Source: Myroides odoratus DSM 2801 (GTDB lineage: Bacteria; Bacteroidota; Bacteroidia; Flavobacteriales; Flavobacteriaceae). Taken from it: a stretch of DNA of 55,328 bases. Numbering within the stretch: position 1 is the stretch's first letter; every line of letters begins with the position of its first letter. The stretch lies in the NCBI RefSeq assembly GCF_000243275.1, contig NZ_CM001437.1:2033798-2089125 (forward strand). Reading direction: 5' to 3'. Positions 18,311 through 25,418 of the stretch are shown here, piece by piece. The notes under the pieces are model-generated. The model had not been told where the DNA came from, searched no databases, and saw nothing but the letters and a program-made list of their open reading frames with translations. The position numbers and the translations under genes are program-made.

Positions 18311-20284
18311 ATGTCACAATCAAAATCGACGCATCTAGATCGCGTATCACTAGGCACACTATTAGTAACTTTAGGAATTATCTATGGGGATATTGGGACT
18401 TCGCCGCTGTATGTGATGAAAGCCATCATGGGGAAAGCCATTATTCAAGAAGAAGTTGTTTTAGGGGCTATCTCTTGTGTGTTTTGGACCTTAACGTTGC
18501 AAACCACAATTAAATATGTTTTTTTGACGCTAAAAGCGGATAACAATGGAGAAGGAGGAATCTTCTCGTTATTTACGTTAGTCAAAAAGCTAAAGAAACC
18601 TTGGTTGATTGTTCCTGCCATTATCGGTGGAAGTGCATTACTTGCCGACGGAATTATTACACCTCCGATTTCGATATCTTCTGCGGTAGAAGGACTTAAA
18701 ATTTATCAACCAGAATTAGCAACGATACCAATCGTGATTGGAATATTAGTTGGAATCTTCTTTATTCAACAGTTTGGAACCAAAACAATTGGACGATTCT
18801 TTGGTCCAATGATGATGATTTGGTTCTTGATGCTCGGTATTTTAGGTTTTAGCCATTTAATTGATAACCTAAGCGTGCTTAGAGCATTGAATCCGTATTA
18901 TGCTTTTCATTTGTTGACCATTCACTCGGAAGGTTATTTGGTGTTGGGATTTGTATTTCTATGTACAACTGGAGCCGAAGCATTATATAGTGATTTAGGT
19001 CATTGTGGAATAAAAAATATCCGCATCAGCTGGATGTTTGTCAAAACGATGTTGGTGTTGAGCTATTTTGGACAAGGAGCATTGCTTATTGAGCATGCTG
19101 GAAGTACCTTGATGGACTTATCTCCAAATTCTGAACAACCCGCAAACCCGTTTTATTTGGTGATGCCAGATTGGTTCTTGCCTTTTGGAATTGGAATTGC
19201 AACATTGGCTGCCGTTATTGCTTCTCAAGCTTTAATTAGTGGGTCGTTTACCTTGATTAATGAAGCCATTCGACTTAATCTATGGCCGAAGGTTCGCGTG
19301 AAATTTCCAACGAATATTAGAGGGCAACTTTATATCCCATCCATTAACTTCCTTTTATTTATTGGTTGTGTCTTCGTAGTGCTACACTTTAAAGAATCCG
19401 GAAATATGGAGGCAGCTTACGGTTTGGCGATTACCCTTTGTATGATCATGACGACCATCTTATTGGGGTATTTTATGGTGCTCAAACGTGTACCTTTGAT
19501 TATTATCATCTTGGTGGAAATTATCTACTTATCTATTGAGGTTTCATTCTTTATCTCCAACGTACAAAAATTCTCGCATGGAGGTTATGTAACGGTGATT
19601 ATCGCAGGTGTATTAGCTTCAGTTATGACGGTGAATTACTTGGGAAAAAAGATCAGACGCAATTATACGGATTTGGTGAATATCGTGGATTATCAAGATA
19701 TTTTGACCGATTTAAGTCAGGATCAAACCATGCCGAAATACGTGACAAACTTGGTGTATTTAACCAATGCTCATAATCCTTCAAAAATTGAATACAAAGC
19801 CATGTTCTCCATTATTAACCGCCGTCCAAAACGGGCGGATAACTATTGGTTTGTCCATGTAAATGTGGTTGATGAACCGTATAAATCAGAATATAAAGTC
19901 GTTAAATATGGCACACATCAAAATATACTGCGTATTGACTTTTACTTGGGATTCCGAAATGAACAACGCATCAATGTATTGATGAAACAAGTTGTAACGG
20001 AATTAATGCTGCAAGGCGAAATTGATATTACTACGCGTTATGAATCTCTACATAAAATTGATGCGATTGGCGATTTTGAGTATGTTCTAATTGAAAAAGA
20101 GCTGTCGTACGACAATGATTTACCAATGAAAGAGAAGATTATTCTCGATCTCTATGACTTCTTGAAAAAGATATCGTTATCAGAAGAAAAGGCTTTCGGT
20201 TTAGATAGTAGTGCCGTGAAAGTAGAGCGTTTTCCTTTGATTATTAATCCGATTGAAGATCTACCTTTGAAGCGTTTAGAATAA
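18311..20284 (+). CDS. kup: Kup-type potassium uptake protein
   Basis: The 657-residue protein carries the Kup signature GIIYGDIGTSPLYV near its start, about twelve hydrophobic membrane segments up to residue about 455, and a C-terminal cytoplasmic domain of about 200 residues. Members are proton-coupled potassium importers of the inner membrane. I chose ATG 18311 (MSQSKSTHLD); a GTG directly before it would add one residue. Transcribed alone, with a strong hairpin after the stop. Confidence 0.94.
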   Translation: MSQSKSTHLDRVSLGTLLVTLGIIYGDIGTSPLYVMKAIMGKAIIQEEVVLGAISCVFWTLTLQTTIKYVFLTLKADNNGEGGIFSLFTLVKKLKKPWLIVPAIIGGSALLADGIITPPISISSAVEGLKIYQPELATIPIVIGILVGIFFIQQFGTKTIGRFFGPMMMIWFLMLGILGFSHLIDNLSVLRALNPYYAFHLLTIHSEGYLVLGFVFLCTTGAEALYSDLGHCGIKNIRISWMFVKTMLVLSYFGQGALLIEHAGSTLMDLSPNSEQPANPFYLVMPDWFLPFGIGIATLAAVIASQALISGSFTLINEAIRLNLWPKVRVKFPTNIRGQLYIPSINFLLFIGCVFVVLHFKESGNMEAAYGLAITLCMIMTTILLGYFMVLKRVPLIIIILVEIIYLSIEVSFFISNVQKFSHGGYVTVIIAGVLASVMTVNYLGKKIRRNYTDLVNIVDYQDILTDLSQDQTMPKYVTNLVYLTNAHNPSKIEYKAMFSIINRRPKRADNYWFVHVNVVDEPYKSEYKVVKYGTHQNILRIDFYLGFRNEQRINVLMKQVVTELMLQGEIDITTRYESLHKIDAIGDFEYVLIEKELSYDNDLPMKEKIILDLYDFLKKISLSEEKAFGLDSSAVKVERFPLIINPIEDLPLKRLE

Positions 20285-20300
20285 AAAGGTATAATTTTAT

Positions 20301-20335
20301 AAAAGGCTGATGTATAGTAATATACATCAGCCTTT
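20301..20335 (+). terminator. Terminator-like hairpin after kup
   Basis: A perfect 15-base stem, AAAGGCTGATGTATA with TATACATCAGCCTTT, around GTAA. The following T tract is interrupted (CGCATTTT), so it may work as an mRNA 3' end protector as much as a terminator. Confidence 0.6.
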
Positions 20336-20348
20336 CGCATTTTAGTAT

Positions 20349-20377
20349 TTGTTTTTTAAATCAAAAGCGTATCTTTG
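20349..20377 (+). promoter_or_regulatory. Predicted promoter of the trhO-trhP unit
   Basis: TTG at 20349-20351, an 18-base spacer and TATCTTTG at 20370-20377. The trhO ATG lies 70 bases downstream. Confidence 0.65.
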
Positions 20378-20447
20378 CCCTTTGAAATTCTTCCATTTAG
20401 AATTTCACTTCGTTTTTTTATTTATTCTACACTTAAATTTATATAGC

Positions 20448-21806
20448 ATGCAACTGTATAACACATTAAGCGCAGAAGAAAGAGCAGAACTTATTGAACA
20501 AGCAGGAGAAAACCGCTTGACTTTGTCTTTCTATGCGTATGCCAAAATCGAAAACCCACAACAATTTAGAGATGATTTATTCCTAGCATGGGATGCGTTA
20601 GATGCCTTAGGCCGTACTTACGTAGCTCACGAAGGAATTAATGCACAGATGTCTGTACCAGCATCGAAATTTGAAGCGTTCCGCCAAACGTTGGAAGCGT
20701 ATGATTTCATGAAGGGCATTCGCTTAAATGTTGCGGTAGAACAAGACGATTTGTCTTTCTTAAAGCTAACAGTGAAGGTTAGAAATAAAATCGTTGCCGA
20801 CGGATTAAATGATGATACGTTTGATGTGACCAATAAAGGGATTCACTTAAGAGCCAAAGAATTTAATCAATTGTTAGAGGATCCTAACACCGTTGTGGTG
20901 GATTTCCGTAACCACTATGAAAGTGAAGTCGGTCATTTTGTGGGTGCTATTACACCTGATGTGGATACTTTCCGCGAATCATTACCAATCATCAAAGATC
21001 AATTAGAAGAAATCAAAGAGGAAAAAAACTTATTGATGTATTGTACTGGGGGGATTCGCTGTGAAAAAGCATCGGCTTACTTCAAACACCACGGATTCAA
21101 AAATGTTTACCAATTAGAAGGCGGTATTATTGAATATACCCGTCAGGTAAAAGATGAAGGGTTAGAAAGTAAATTCATCGGTAAAAACTTCGTATTTGAC
21201 CACCGTTTAGGGGAGCGTATTACAGATGATGTAATTGCCAATTGCCACCAATGCGGAAAACCTTGTGATGTACACGTAAACTGTGCCAATGAAGCGTGTC
21301 ACTTGTTGTTCATTCAATGTGACGAATGTGCAGAAAACATGCATGGTTGTTGTTCAACCGAATGTTTGGAGGTTATTCAATTGCCAGTTGAGGAACAAAA
21401 GAATTTGAGAAAAGGCGTTCAAAAAGGAAATTTAATTTTCAAAAAAGGACGTTCAGAATCGCTAAAATTCAAGAAGAATGTAGAAGGAGCAGCTGAAATT
21501 CAACCGGTAAAAGTGAGCACAGTGACTCAAATTCGCAAAAAGCAAGTAGAGCGCAAAGTGTTAGTTGGAACTGTTCAACACTATTTTACGAAAGCAAGTG
21601 TAGGTCAGTTTGAGATTGATAAAGCAGTACAGCTGGGAGATAAAATTGCCATTGTAGGGCCAACAACAGGAGATGAGCGTTTGGTTTTAGAGAAAATGTT
21701 GGTGAATGGGCAAGAGGTTACGGTAGCACAAACAGGGGACCGTATGACAATGGAACTAGGGTTCCGCGTGCGTAAAAACGACCAAATCTTTAAAATACTA
21801 GATTAA
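20448..21806 (+). CDS. trhO: tRNA U34 hydroxylase TrhO (rhodanese family) with an added U32-type C-terminal domain
   Basis: From ATG 20448 (MQLYNTLSAEE) the protein has 452 residues; E. coli TrhO (YceA) has about 350. The N-terminal acylphosphatase-like part (about 1-110; YVAHEGINAQMSVP), the rhodanese domain with active-site loop CTGGIRCEKASAY (about 200-212) and a Cys-rich segment (about 265-315) are all present. In E. coli TrhO makes 5-hydroxyuridine at tRNA position 34 using oxygen. Unusually, residues about 367-452 (KVLVGTVQHYFTKASVGQFE to the end) resemble the C-terminal domain of the next gene product, TrhP. The frame is open further upstream but that part overlaps the promoter. It lies 11 bases before trhP. 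Confidence 0.93.
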   Translation: MQLYNTLSAEERAELIEQAGENRLTLSFYAYAKIENPQQFRDDLFLAWDALDALGRTYVAHEGINAQMSVPASKFEAFRQTLEAYDFMKGIRLNVAVEQDDLSFLKLTVKVRNKIVADGLNDDTFDVTNKGIHLRAKEFNQLLEDPNTVVVDFRNHYESEVGHFVGAITPDVDTFRESLPIIKDQLEEIKEEKNLLMYCTGGIRCEKASAYFKHHGFKNVYQLEGGIIEYTRQVKDEGLESKFIGKNFVFDHRLGERITDDVIANCHQCGKPCDVHVNCANEACHLLFIQCDECAENMHGCCSTECLEVIQLPVEEQKNLRKGVQKGNLIFKKGRSESLKFKKNVEGAAEIQPVKVSTVTQIRKKQVERKVLVGTVQHYFTKASVGQFEIDKAVQLGDKIAIVGPTTGDERLVLEKMLVNGQEVTVAQTGDRMTMELGFRVRKNDQIFKILD

Positions 21807-21817
21807 ATATATAAGCT

Positions 21818-23062
21818 ATGACAGTTTCAGGAAGAGTTGAATTGATGGCTCCCGCTGGAAACTTCGAATCGTTGCAAGCTGCAATTGATAACGGAGCCGA
21901 TTCAGTGTATTTTGGAGTAGATCAATTGAATATGCGCGCACGTTCAACGGTGAATTTTTCAGTAGATGATTTACCCGAAATCGCCAGACGTTGTAAAGAG
22001 AAAAAGGTACGTACTTACTTGACATTAAACACGATTATTTACGATCATGATTTGTCTGTAGTAAAAACTTTGCTCAATAAAGCAAAAGAAGCGGATTTGA
22101 CAGCTGTAATTGCGTCAGATCAAGCCGTAATTGCCTCGGCTAGAGCGATTGGTTTAGAGGTACACATCTCTACGCAATTGAACGTGACCAATATTGAAAC
22201 TGTTAAGTTTTATAGTTTATTTGCTGATACCATTGTATTATCGCGTGAATTGAGTTTGCGCCAAGTGAAAAAAATTACAGAAGCCATTGAAAGAGAGCAG
22301 GTCAAAGGACCTTCTGGAAATTTAGTGGAGATTGAGATTTTTGGACATGGAGCTTTGTGTATGGCCGTTTCTGGAAAGTGTTATTTGAGCTTGCACTCGC
22401 ATAATTCATCTGCCAATCGCGGAGCATGCAAACAAAATTGCCGTAAAAAGTATACCGTTATCGATCAAGAAAGTGGATTTGAAATCGAGATTGACAACGA
22501 ATACATGATGTCACCGAAAGATTTATGTACGATTGACTTCTTGGATCAGGTGATTGATACGGGAATAAAAGTAGTGAAAATCGAAGGAAGAGGTAGAGCA
22601 CCAGAATATGTAGCAACAGTGATTCGCGCATATAGAGAAGCCATTGATGCGATTGCAGAAGGAACCTATAGCAAAGAAAAAGTTGCCGAATGGATGACTG
22701 CTTTAGAAACAGTATATAATCGCGGGTTTTGGAGTGGATACTATTTAGGACAGAAGTTAGGGGAGTGGAGTGATAATCCTGGAAGTAACGCCACACAGAA
22801 AAAAGTATATGTAGGGAAGGCTGCACATTACTTTCAAAAAGCGGCTATTGGTGAATTCAAAATCGAAGCCTATGACATTAAAGTTGGCGATCGTATTTTG
22901 ATTACAGGACCGAGTACTGGCGCACAAGAATTGACTATTGATGAACTATTTGTGAATGAACAAGCCACAGAAAAAGCCATCAAAGGAGATGATTGTACGA
23001 TTAAGTTACCCTTCCGCGTTCGCTTGTCTGATAAAATGTACAAAATTGTAACAACAGAATGA
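21818..23062 (+). CDS. trhP: U32-family tRNA hydroxylation protein TrhP (YegQ-like)
   Basis: The 414-residue protein begins ELMAPAGNFESLQAAIDNGA, typical of U32 'peptidases'. The Cys-bearing signature HGALCMAVSGKC, ANRGACKQNCRKKY and PKDLC (about 177-235) binds an iron-sulfur cluster in studied members. A C-terminal beta domain runs about 328-412. TrhP takes part in prephenate-dependent formation of 5-hydroxyuridine at tRNA U34, a route parallel to oxygen-dependent TrhO; no peptidase activity is expected. The stop overlaps the ferredoxin start by four bases (ATGA), implying translational coupling. Confidence 0.92.
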   Translation: MTVSGRVELMAPAGNFESLQAAIDNGADSVYFGVDQLNMRARSTVNFSVDDLPEIARRCKEKKVRTYLTLNTIIYDHDLSVVKTLLNKAKEADLTAVIASDQAVIASARAIGLEVHISTQLNVTNIETVKFYSLFADTIVLSRELSLRQVKKITEAIEREQVKGPSGNLVEIEIFGHGALCMAVSGKCYLSLHSHNSSANRGACKQNCRKKYTVIDQESGFEIEIDNEYMMSPKDLCTIDFLDQVIDTGIKVVKIEGRGRAPEYVATVIRAYREAIDAIAEGTYSKEKVAEWMTALETVYNRGFWSGYYLGQKLGEWSDNPGSNATQKKVYVGKAAHYFQKAAIGEFKIEAYDIKVGDRILITGPSTGAQELTIDELFVNEQATEKAIKGDDCTIKLPFRVRLSDKMYKIVTTE

Positions 23063-23289
23063 TTGTAATTACTTTACAGCGCGAGAAATGTATTGGATGC
23101 AATTACTGTGTTGAAGTTGCTCCACAGCAATTTCAAATGTCAAAGAAAGACGGTAAAACAGTATTGCTTAGAGCAGTCAATAATAAAGGATTTCACACCT
23201 TGAAATCACCAGACTATACCATTTTAGAAGCTTGTGAACAAGCAGAAAAAATATGTCCTGTACATATTATTAACGTCAAAGAAGTATAA
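23059..23289 (+). CDS. Small 4Fe-4S ferredoxin
   Basis: The 76-residue protein has CIGCNYC near residue 12 and a distant CP pair in EKICPVHII, the ligand set for a single [4Fe-4S] cluster. It has no signal peptide and should be a cytoplasmic electron carrier. It overlaps trhP by four bases, which suggests a dedicated role in reducing or maintaining the TrhP iron-sulfur centre. That role is inference. Confidence 0.88.
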   Translation: MIVITLQREKCIGCNYCVEVAPQQFQMSKKDGKTVLLRAVNNKGFHTLKSPDYTILEACEQAEKICPVHIINVKEV

Positions 23290-23291
23290 AA

Positions 23292-23645
23292 ATGAGAAAA
23301 ATATATTATTTGAGTTCTTGCGATACTTGTAAGCGAATTTTGGGACAAATGCCAAATTTGGATACATTCGAATTGCAGGATATCAAAAAAGAACCCGTTA
23401 CCGCTGCGCAACTACAAGCGCTTTATGCTGTGGTTGGGAGTTATGAAAAACTCTTCAATAAACGCGCACAGCTGTATAAGGCAAGAGGCTTAAAAGATCA
23501 AAATCTACAAGAGGAAGATTACAAAAATTTGATTCTAGAACAGTATACCTTTTTGAATCGACCTGTCATAGTGATTGACGAAGCTGTTTTTGTCGGAAAT
23601 AGCAAAAAAGTAGTAGAAGAAGCGATTGCGAAAGCAACAAAATAA
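23292..23645 (+). CDS. ArsC/Spx-family thioredoxin-fold protein
   Basis: The 117-residue protein starts with a thioredoxin-like strand and SSCDTCKR, the CX2C-type site of the ArsC/YffB/Spx family. NRPVIVIDEAVFVG near the end is the conserved cis-Pro region with a preceding Arg. Members include glutaredoxin-linked arsenate reductases and proteins of unknown redox role. There is no ars gene nearby. The start is two bases after the ferredoxin stop, so it is the last gene of the trhO-trhP-ferredoxin unit; a thiol redox role there is possible. Confidence 0.85.
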   Translation: MRKIYYLSSCDTCKRILGQMPNLDTFELQDIKKEPVTAAQLQALYAVVGSYEKLFNKRAQLYKARGLKDQNLQEEDYKNLILEQYTFLNRPVIVIDEAVFVGNSKKVVEEAIAKATK

Positions 23646-23649
23646 ATAA

Positions 23650-23680
23650 AAATCGAAGTGAGAGCTTCGATTTTTTTTAT
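23650..23680 (+). terminator. Terminator of the trhO-trhP unit
   Basis: AATCGAAG and CTTCGATT flank a six-base loop, followed by eight T. It starts just after the stop codon. Confidence 0.88.
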
Positions 23681-24027
23681 TTGTAATATACTGATATTTA
23701 GTGTATTGATTTTTTATTTGTATTTTTTTTTCAAAAATAAGTGACCAAATGTGTATTGTAGTGTCTTAATAATGAAAAAGGGAATAATTGCTATGAAGTT
23801 TTTCTGTTTTTAATAAGAAGAAAATTTACGCTATACTGGTTTGGATTTTTAATTGTTTATTAAGGGGTTCAATCAGAAAGAAGAGCCGGTATAGTTCTAT
23901 TAAAAAGGAAAAATTGCTATTGAAAAAGAACATTTTTATTTCATAATAGTAGGAAAGTTGGTAAATACTTAACATAGTTAAAGATTGGTTTGTTTTAAAA
24001 GTTACAGTTAAGTACAACGTTGGTTTT
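23681..24027. other. AT-rich gene-free stretch
   Basis: Very AT-rich with long T runs. A 63-codon minus-strand frame exists here, but it is low-complexity and has no recognisable domain, so I do not call a gene. It could hold a small RNA ending at the hairpin at 24028. Confidence 0.45.
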
Positions 24028-24058
24028 GAAAAAGGGAAGCATCTGCTTCCCTTTTTTT
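24028..24058. terminator. Orphan terminator hairpin with no gene before it
   Basis: AAAGGGAAGCA and TGCTTCCCTTT form a near-loopless stem with TTTTTTT after and an A run before. The nearest plus-strand gene already has its own terminator 350 bases upstream, and no minus-strand gene lies to the right. Confidence 0.7.
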
Positions 24059-24180
24059 ATGCGTATTCGCTTCATCTGTGATACCCTGCCATTGGTCTTG
24101 CCCTGCATCTTAATAGAAAGAAAAAGGATCACCTTGTAGTTTGACTAGGTGGCATCCCGCATGAATCTTCCTTGGTATTA

Positions 24181-24231
24181 CTTTGGAGTTTCTTTGTAGT
24201 TTTTGGGAGTTACCTTGGAGTTTCTTTGGAG
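24181..24231 (+). repeat. Short direct repeat, 32-base period
   Basis: CTTTGGAGTTTCTTTGTAG (24181-24199) recurs as CCTTGGAGTTTCTTTGGAG (24213-24231) with two mismatches. It borders the left arm of the inverted repeat. Confidence 0.7.
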
Positions 24232-24297
24232 TATACTTGGACAATCCTTCGACAAAACCACCTTTTTTCCTAGGAAACTCCAAGCATACTCCAAGGA
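24223..24297. repeat. Imperfect inverted repeat of about 18 bp
   Basis: TCTTTGGAGTATACTTGG (24223-24240) pairs with CCAAGCATACTCCAAGGA (24280-24297). There are one mismatch and one possible G-T pair, and 39 bases lie between the arms. The loop ends with GGAAACT, complementary to the AGTTTC left of the arm. Confidence 0.7.
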
Positions 24298-24331
24298 AGG
24301 TCGAAGAAAGGTATAGGTATCTATTATTTAA

Positions 24332-24473
24332 CCCCTAACTTATAACCCACAATCACACCCCACACCCCTTAACCCATAACCCACACCCCACACCCCATAA
24401 CTCCCAACCCATAACTCCCAACCCATAACCCACAACCCACAACTCCCAACCCCCAACCCATAACCCCCAACCC
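24332..24473 (+). repeat. C-rich telomere-like degenerate repeat (AACCCATAACCC type)
   Basis: About nineteen runs of three to five C, separated by two- to several-base spacers such as ATAA, ACAA, AACT and ACA, with no G in the tract. The minus strand is correspondingly a series of GGG runs and has strong G-quadruplex potential. It ends some 60 bases before the yicC promoter box. It is not a CRISPR array, since unit length and spacers are far too short. Confidence 0.85.
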
Positions 24474-24530
24474 ATTTTCCATATATTCATTTAATTTAAG
24501 TAGTTATCAGCTATTTATTTGAGTTTTTGT

Positions 24531-24538
24531 TACCTTTG
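24531..24538 (+). promoter_or_regulatory. Predicted -7 box for yicC-gmk-nadD
   Basis: TACCTTTG, 20 bases before the yicC start. No good TTG at 17-23 bases upstream. Confidence 0.5.
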
Positions 24539-24558
24539 CAGTCATTATCTTTTAGAAT

Positions 24559-25418
24559 ATGATACATTCAATGACTGGGTTTGGTAAAGCATGCTTACAA
24601 TTACCCACAAAAAAAATCACAATCGAAGTGAAGTCGCTTAATAGTAAGAATCTAGACTTAAACGTGCGTTTGCCGTTAAGCTATAGAGAAAAAGAGTTGA
24701 CTTTGCGCAATCAAATTGCTTTAGAGCTAGAACGTGGAAAAGTAGATTTCTCTTTGTTCTGCGAGATTACTGCAGAAGAAACATCGAGTAAAATCAACGC
24801 TCCAATCGTATTGGCGTACATTGAGCAAATGAAGGCGATTATACCGAATGCCGATGCAACAGAGTTGATGAAAATGGCCGTTCGTATGCCTGATGCATTG
24901 AAGGTAGAACGCAGTGATTTTGATGAAACAGAATGGAAAGAGATTGAGGTTGTAATCCAAGAAGCGATTCAAAGCATGAAAGCCTTCCGCGTAAGCGAAG
25001 GAAAGTCATTAGAGAATGATTTTAGAGCCCGTATAGCGAATATCTTCACTTATATGGATCAAGATCATTATTAGATAAAGAACGCATCGTAAGCGTAAAA
25101 GAACGCCTTCGTGCAAATCTATTGGAATTGCAATTAAATATTGACGAAAATAGATTTGAACAAGAGGTAATTTACTACTTAGAAAAACTGGATATCACAG
25201 AAGAAAAAGTGCGTTTATCCAAACACCTAGAATATTTCTTAGAAACCCTTGGGGGTACTGAAGCAAATGGACGTAAGTTAGGATTCATTGCACAAGAAAT
25301 GGGAAGGGAAATTAATACCATGGGTTCTAAATCCAACCATGCAGAAATGCAAAAGATTGTCGTAAAGATGAAAGACGAGTTGGAAAAAATCAAAGAACAG
25401 GTATTAAACGTATTATAA
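24559..25418 (+). pseudogene. yicC: yicC-family endoribonuclease gene, split by a one-base frameshift
   Basis: The first frame (24559-25074) gives the YicC N-terminus MIHSMTGFGKACLQ and continues to FRARIANIFTYMDQ before DHY-stop. The second frame, open from about 25065 to 25418, continues the family without a gap: SLLDKERIVSVKERLRANLL, then a domain with GGTEANGRKLGF and NTMGSKSNHAEM. One base missing after CAA at 25060-25062 (for instance GA? TCA TTA TTA GAT) explains the split. No ATG starts the second part and no slippery sequence is seen. Intact YicC proteins are about 290 residues and act as RNA endonucleases. It is either a real mutation or a sequencing error. It heads a yicC-gmk-nadD unit. 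Confidence 0.88.

Follow-up and report, generated by a model that had tools for sequence, protein, structure and literature searches.

The window analysed here, meaning the whole stretch of 55,328 nucleotides, comes from Myroides odoratus DSM 2801 (contig NZ_CM001437.1, forward-strand positions 2,033,798 to 2,089,125), whose genome consists of one contig of 4.3 Mb. It carries a run of four genes on the + strand, coding for TrhO (452 amino acids, aa), a TrhP-like U32 protein (414 aa), a ferredoxin (76 aa) and an ArsC/Spx-family protein (117 aa). TrhO and TrhP are associated with 5-hydroxyuridine at position 34 of tRNA (ho5U34), and the TrhO of this organism ends in a predicted beta-barrel that is homologous to the C-terminal domain of its TrhP-like neighbour. 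Here we describe this fused TrhO, which is 98% identical to the TrhO of M. odoratus strain XSfan, together with its probable origin by a single capture, its distribution and its putative function. Coordinates are window positions, and all features with coordinates lie on the + strand.

Gene content of the locus

The trhO gene (20448..21806) was annotated with NCBIfam and Pfam models as UPF0176_N, a rhodanese domain with a CTGGIRC loop, Rhodanese_C and a C-terminal extension. The protein scores 257.6 bits against the NCBIfam TrhO equivalog NF001133, above the cut-off of 170, and by family it is a predicted O2-dependent U34 hydroxylase. In the active-site CXGGXR loop, residues C199, T200, G201, G202 and C205 are invariant among 54 sequences and R204 is conserved in at least 90% of them; the loop residues are essential in E. 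coli TrhO according to PMC6599085. A longer open reading frame (ORF) for trhO with a TTG start, from 20349, was set aside, since database relatives have 450-463 aa and the closest ones mostly 452 aa.

The gene for the TrhP-like U32 protein (21818..23062; PF01136, 236 bits) follows after a gap of 11 bases (21807-21817), and the genome has no other PF01136 match. Its residues E173, C181 and C188 align with E162, C170 and C177 of E. coli TrhP and are invariant in 43 sequences, as are C204 and C208. The three E. coli residues, which are among six that were mutated, are essential (PMC6599085), and the invariant cysteines would fit a predicted iron-sulfur (Fe-S) cluster. According to PMC6599085, trhP of the yegQ type occurs mainly in gamma- and beta-proteobacteria. 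The ferredoxin gene (23059..23289; PF13370, 42.8 bits) overlaps trhP by four bases through ATGA, and two bases separate it from the ArsC-like gene, so that the spacing of the preliminary description stands.

Homology and predicted fold of the shared barrel

The window TrhO has 452 aa, against 350 aa in E. coli TrhO and length bins of 300-369 aa for the sampled unfused TrhOs. The additional part consists of a linker (residues 344-366, 21477..21545), predicted to be disordered with a predicted local distance difference test (pLDDT) score below 50, and a TrhP-type, Peptidase_U32_C-like beta-barrel (residues 369-452, 21552..21803), which is assigned on homology, predicted fold, tree and selection. 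Its homologue, found with BLASTP and hhalign, is the C-terminal barrel of the TrhP-like protein (residues 328-411, 22799..23050). TrhO residues 368-451 align to residues 327-411 of the U32 protein with 42-43% identity. Compared tail against tail, BLASTP aligned 84 aa at 43% identity (E 4e-25; whole proteins E 5e-20), and Smith-Waterman alignment scored 187, where none of 2000 shuffles exceeded 48 (z 36). Profile-profile comparison of TrhO tails with TrhP-like tails by hhalign reached a probability of 100% (E 3.4e-43, 86 columns), while a control of the TrhO-tail profile against E. coli TrhO reached 0.7%. The extra length of about 100 residues and the likeness of the two tails, both noticed in the preliminary description, are thus borne out, also at the level of profiles.

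In 19 columns, TrhO tails and TrhP-like tails agree on one residue that reaches at least 80% in each, including K370, Y379, K382, G404, P405, T407, G408, R442, D445 and K449. Where a locus carries both genes, its two tails share 42-62% identity (34 loci, some from the same genome). Current domain annotation misses the barrel on TrhO: PF16325 scores 16.2 bits on the TrhO tail, below its gathering cut-off of 28.2, and appears in 0 of 120 TrhO relatives listed with precomputed Pfam domains. On the TrhP-like tail PF16325 gave no match at E up to 1. A joint that includes more of the TrhP catalytic part was also considered, with TrhP matches starting from residue 273-278 in a few TrhOs, and was rejected; in five TrhO ends compared by eye the likeness is clear only from the barrel on.

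The TrhO tail is predicted to be a U32 C-terminal beta-barrel, a fold that also occurs in EF-Tu as domain II and in IF2 as domain C2. A sequence search of the PDB for a TrhP structure gave no match at E up to 1, and the profile of 43 TrhP-like sequences found only four PDB matches (E 0.29-0.42), ribosomal protein L35a among them.

Origin and spread of the fusion

The tail tree was built from 60 of 90 TrhO tails and 60 of 67 TrhP-like tails. All 60 TrhO tails form a single clade (100/99), which is nested in the TrhP-like tails of Flavobacterium, Myroides and Epilithonimonas (89/91), and this group itself sits inside the tails of other Flavobacteriaceae genera, plus one of another family code (G092). 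Since the TrhO tails form one clade among TrhP-like tails, the barrel was probably captured once, from a neighbouring trhP. A first tree of the TrhO core, based on 109 of 139 rows after 30 fused rows had been dropped to thin the set, needed two changes of fusion state, which we attribute to long outgroup branches among the fused rows. In a second core tree, which excluded the tail and drew on 34 fused rows (of 90) and 42 unfused rows (of 48, without the long-branched L102, L103 and L108-L111), one branch divides fused from unfused TrhO with 100/100 support and one change is needed.

In the 1.5 kb flanks of the 48 unfused loci, trhO lies directly 5' of trhP-ferredoxin in seven (L092, L095, L148, L154, L160, L161, L165), with gaps of 0-10 bases; trhP-ferredoxin is upstream of trhO in L097, L149 and L167 and on the other strand in L143. 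The fusion is most simply explained by a single event in which the end of the neighbouring gene was duplicated. The opposite course, in which the fusion was lost elsewhere instead of gained, was rejected, because behind the 48 unfused genes only two matches at E <=0.01 were found, namely the trhP on the other strand (L143) and a short match with E 0.008 (L099). Matches past the trhO stop codons in G257 and G230 revealed no tail there. As a separate observation, the unfused trhO and trhP of L092 (G107) share a frame with only a TAG between them (gap 0), giving a 767-aa open frame with one stop, which comes near to a complete fusion of TrhO with TrhP.

In a quick core tree the TrhOs of the Chryseobacterium group fall inside those of Flavobacterium (SH-aLRT, an approximate likelihood-ratio branch test, 94), and no unfused TrhO occurs among the listed genomes of family code f2, which appears to correspond to the Chryseobacterium, Elizabethkingia and Epilithonimonas group. 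Together these two results suggest that the fused gene passed horizontally between families. Epilithonimonas hungarica (L032) is the sole Chryseobacterium-group locus of the named collection that has trhP-ferredoxin behind the fused trhO, at 74% and 63% identity. Judged by this locus, the whole unit may have come with the transfer, trhP and the ferredoxin then being lost in relatives.

Distribution in Bacteroidota and association with the ferredoxin

Fused TrhO recurs in the phylum, in 9 of 148 Bacteroidota genomes (phylum draw), four of the nine having a TrhP-like tail. In a draw from the order (n=246) we counted by hand 56 fused TrhOs, made up of 23 of 23 genomes with the genus code of the window, one genome (G188) from a further genus and 32 of the 38 listed f2 genomes; the other six f2 genomes gave weak matches only (E 3e-11 to 9e-17) and no TrhO core, and 21 genomes of this draw had no match and are not listed by family. 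A draw from the family with one genome per genus (n=120, hand count) contained 2 fused TrhOs, 103 unfused TrhOs and 15 genomes without a TrhO core. Among the matches listed, which reach to about E 2e-11 (hand count), a TrhP-like tail occurs in 12 of the 15 genomes lacking TrhO and in 27 of the 103 with unfused TrhO. The two proteins may thus be complementary, and such a pattern would be expected if they were interchangeable. Of the three genomes with neither a TrhO core nor a TrhP-like tail, two are assemblies that are 80% and 66% complete.

The named collection consists of the best 80 of 156 loci and is biased to fused TrhO, since the tail or its immediate surroundings contain two of the six search peptides. 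All 80 loci have an intact fused ORF, and the 56 fused matches from the order draw came without a reported internal stop. The trhP gene is present in 28 of the 80, within 20 bases of trhO in 23 of these. From the 52 loci without it, 49 genomes were examined, leaving out L030 and L046 (short contigs of metagenome-assembled genomes), and in none of the 49 was a TrhP-like protein found elsewhere in the genome; in five, an open frame of 621-640 aa holds a U32 match of 34-37%, and the remaining matches all come from the TrhO tail. In the Paenimyroides-type loci L013-L015 and L018, trhP and the ferredoxin are both gone from between the fused trhO and an arsC-like gene 75-725 bases downstream, which is a natural loss of the two genes together.

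Residues C11, C14, C17, C66 and P67 of the ferredoxin, which has one CxxCxxC...CP cluster motif, are kept in 57 of 57 aligned loci (a few from the same genome). Among fused-TrhO genomes, it is present in all 19 tested that have the TrhP-like protein, which stand for 19 of the 28 loci with trhP, and in none of the 49 that lack this protein. Across the phylum draw it accompanies 20 of 21 U32 matches of at least 51% identity (exception G119) and occurs in none of the 127 other genomes at E <1e-10 (Fisher p 8e-24); three of the 127 had ferredoxin matches at about E 5e-4, which were not counted. By its absence from genomes with 41-47% U32 relatives, which are among the 127, the ferredoxin is a marker of this TrhP-like clade, and not of U32 relatives generally or of TrhO. 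An overlap of 1 or 4 bases joins trhP and the ferredoxin gene in 25 of 28 named loci; outside the named collection, 20 of the 27 loci found with both genes have it too. The near-perfect co-occurrence fits a ferredoxin that serves the TrhP-like protein, as had been proposed from the single locus.

Selection on the tail and its proposed function

The ratio of nonsynonymous to synonymous substitution rates (dN/dS) of the tail is 0.019-0.151 in the 15 of 16 pairs that could be computed, with some dS values near saturation. In seven of seven pairs from the 49 fused-TrhO genomes without TrhP it is 0.070-0.151, so judged by these ratios the tail is under purifying selection also where the TrhP-like protein is absent. 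The core is under stronger constraint (dN/dS 0.004-0.049, 15 of 16 pairs), and tail dN exceeds core dN in 15 of 16 pairs. The higher dN, and the ease with which adjacent genes are accidentally duplicated, would suit a tail that is a neutral passenger of an old duplication between neighbours. We consider this very improbable in view of the low dN/dS, the fused ORF that stays intact throughout the named collection, the lack of reported stops in the order draw, and the survival of the tail through the apparent transfer between families.

Selection in genomes without TrhP also means that sharing a partner with TrhP is not the only role of the tail. The suggestion that the domain lets both enzymes use one partner, made when the locus was first described, corresponds to a protein-protein module that holds TrhO in one tRNA-hydroxylation complex with a shared partner, be it the TrhP-like enzyme, the ferredoxin or another protein. 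The adjoining genes, the overlap of trhP with the ferredoxin gene and the presence of one domain on both enzymes speak for such a module, but with the tail still selected in genomes of which 0 of 49 have a TrhP-like protein or the ferredoxin, it is improbable, some room being left for a partner of a different kind. The 19 common conserved columns and the selection without TrhP argue for the same molecular job of the barrel in both proteins, and a role that requires the TrhP-like protein or the ferredoxin is disfavoured.

PMC6599085 states that E. coli TrhO binds tRNA-Ala1 and not tRNA-Leu3, and that TrhP prefers Leu3 and Pro3. Our best explanation is that the run encodes two routes to ho5U34, one through the O2-dependent TrhO and one through the TrhP-like U32 enzyme, to which the ferredoxin belongs. 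The duplication of the trhP tail onto the end of trhO would have taken place in an ancestor of Flavobacterium and Myroides that had trhO directly 5' of trhP-ferredoxin. On its flexible linker the barrel would act as a tethered tRNA-docking module that raises affinity or widens the choice of U34 tRNAs, the widened set possibly including tRNAs that are poorly bound by E. coli TrhO and served by TrhP (e.g. tRNA-Leu3). The ferredoxin would donate electrons to the TrhP-like enzyme or maintain its expected Fe-S cluster, and TrhO would not use it. The end product would probably be 5-methoxyuridine (mo5U), made through a TrmR-like methyltransferase. As a whole we hold this explanation tentatively, at slightly less than an even chance. 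The sequence comparisons themselves show the homology, the single origin, the donor lineage (at moderate support), the purifying selection and the co-occurrence, while tRNA docking, a wider substrate choice, electron donation, mo5U and the hydroxylase role of the TrhP-like protein are deductions. A tRNA-binding role of the barrel, already raised in the preliminary description, is plausible from the predicted fold.

Several points weigh against this explanation. The support for the donor lineage (89/91) is moderate. The TrhO-tail profile matches the single E. coli TrhP sequence only weakly in hhalign (13%, E 0.0021), so the link to the E. coli domain rests on its PF16325 annotation in PMC6599085 and on structure. 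The U32 gene had been called trhP outright; the conserved glutamate and cysteines agree with that name, but the protein scores 200.4 bits against the NCBIfam TrhP equivalog NF011996, which has a cut-off of 534, and is thus labelled TrhP-like. The profile match of the tail to EF-Tu and IF2 is not significant (EF-Tu E 0.14-0.4), with GAPDH chains scoring alike. The barrel of EF-Tu and IF2 touches the acceptor end of tRNA, which is far from U34, and an alike fold does not prove an alike ligand. Finally, the fusion as cause of TrhP loss was considered and is unsupported; most genomes with unfused TrhO have no TrhP-like tail either, and as TrhP loss is that common there, neither is the fusion supported as a replacement of TrhP.

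The tail could instead confer general, non-selective affinity for RNA or the ribosome, or solubility or stability, with tRNA choice unchanged. A loose tether of this kind fits the flexible linker and the faster change of the tail relative to the core, and the conserved K370, K382, R442 and K449 fit generic RNA contact; however, the tail keeps specific motifs in common with TrhP-like tails (such as HYF.KA, GP.TG, FR.R.SDK) and not just positive charge, and we regard general affinity as rather unlikely. Returning to the tRNA-docking module, a bolder form of it holds that a tRNA-recognition domain moved once from an O2-independent to an O2-dependent U34 hydroxylase and carried tRNA choice with it, that one fused enzyme can hydroxylate all U34 tRNAs, among them those for Leu and Pro on which E. 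coli TrhO acts poorly, and that the fused gene then reached another family. This stronger form is doubtful, though we would not call it remote.

As to the end product, mo5U is likely, since the genome has one PF01596 methyltransferase (relatives of which reach E 1e-20 in 88 of the 148 Bacteroidota genomes) and TrmR is a member of the PF01596 family. The NCBIfam scan gave no TrmR assignment. Uridine 5-oxyacetic acid (cmo5U) was rejected as end product, with no CmoB over the cut-off in the genome (best 26.2 vs 275 bits).

No report of a TrhO with this barrel was found in the available portions of the open-licence literature on TrhO, TrhP, U32, PF16325 and YfhL. The locus brings together two chemically unrelated enzymes that would serve the same tRNA modification, and the natural graft between them offers a clean test of the U32 C-terminal barrel. 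Our results suggest that a ready-made RNA-docking module passed between two unrelated hydroxylases and was kept where the neighbour was lost, and the pairing of the ferredoxin with the TrhP-like protein points to an electron source of that route in Bacteroidota.

Operon layout and flanking elements

The four genes are probably one operon, given the short gaps (11, -4 and 2 bases), a hairpin downstream and a promoter-like site upstream. The promoter-like site (20348..20377) lies 70 bases 5' of trhO and is a pattern match of the Bacteroidota type (TTTG, 18 bases, TATCTTTG); it is a consensus match only, and the pattern has 10 matches in the window against 4.0 expected. The terminator-like hairpin (23648..23675) begins 2 bases after the last stop of the run, and as three such sites were found in the window against 2.2 expected, its position is the main argument for it. 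No Rfam family reached its gathering score within 20000-24600.

The last gene of the run (23292..23645) encodes the 117-aa ArsC/Spx-family protein (PF03960, 44.1 bits). An ArsC-like gene is near trhO in only 18 of the 80 named loci (L002-L019), which belong to Myroides and near kin, and the protein is probably a local neighbour outside the tRNA-hydroxylation system, contrary to its earlier inclusion in the unit. Further 3' of it, CTTTGGAGTTT-like repeats (24170-24241) precede a C-rich low-complexity tract (24342-24475) with AACCCAC-like 7-base and 49-base repeats. Two adjoining ORFs in the same direction (24559-25074 and 25122-25418) presumably resemble the two ends of one YicC-family gene, listed in two pieces.

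Comparison with known systems

The core of the window TrhO is that of E. coli TrhO (YceA), with 53% identity over 334 aa, and the CTGGIR loop and Cys-rich Rhodanese_C are common to it, E. coli TrhO, Legionella Lpg2838 (PDB 4f67) and PDB 9j5o; PDB sequence matches span query residues 24-307. E. coli TrhO stops at residue 350 without a barrel, whereas in the window protein a linker of about 23 aa leads on to the 84-aa U32_C-like barrel. E. coli TrhP (YegQ) shares with the TrhP-like protein the essential E, C and C and a C-terminal domain at the same place, the two being 27% identical and 453 and 414 aa long, and the window gene differs in overlapping a ferredoxin gene; in PMC6599085, E. coli TrhP is described as Peptidase_U32 plus Peptidase_U32_C.

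With regard to the electron carrier, the window ferredoxin has no significant similarity to E. coli YfhL, likewise a small Fe-S ferredoxin (BLASTP best E 0.11). The YfhL type is 2[4Fe-4S] with two cluster motifs, and with its one motif the window ferredoxin falls outside that type. Lauhon (2019, J Bacteriol e00433-19) reportedly found that YfhL is needed with yegQ for ho5U in E. coli. If that role holds, the window ferredoxin would be a non-homologous counterpart of YfhL.

For the barrel, the closest structural parallel is the C-terminal domain of the Geobacillus U32 peptidase (PDB 4he5/4he6), whose fold is like that predicted for the TrhO tail (root-mean-square deviation 1.1 over 80 residues); there the barrel sits on a U32 protein, in Myroides on a rhodanese-family hydroxylase. 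EF-Tu (domain II) and IF2 (domain C2) appear, on the predicted model, to have the barrel fold in common with the TrhO tail, and they differ in carrying a GTPase domain, which TrhO does not.

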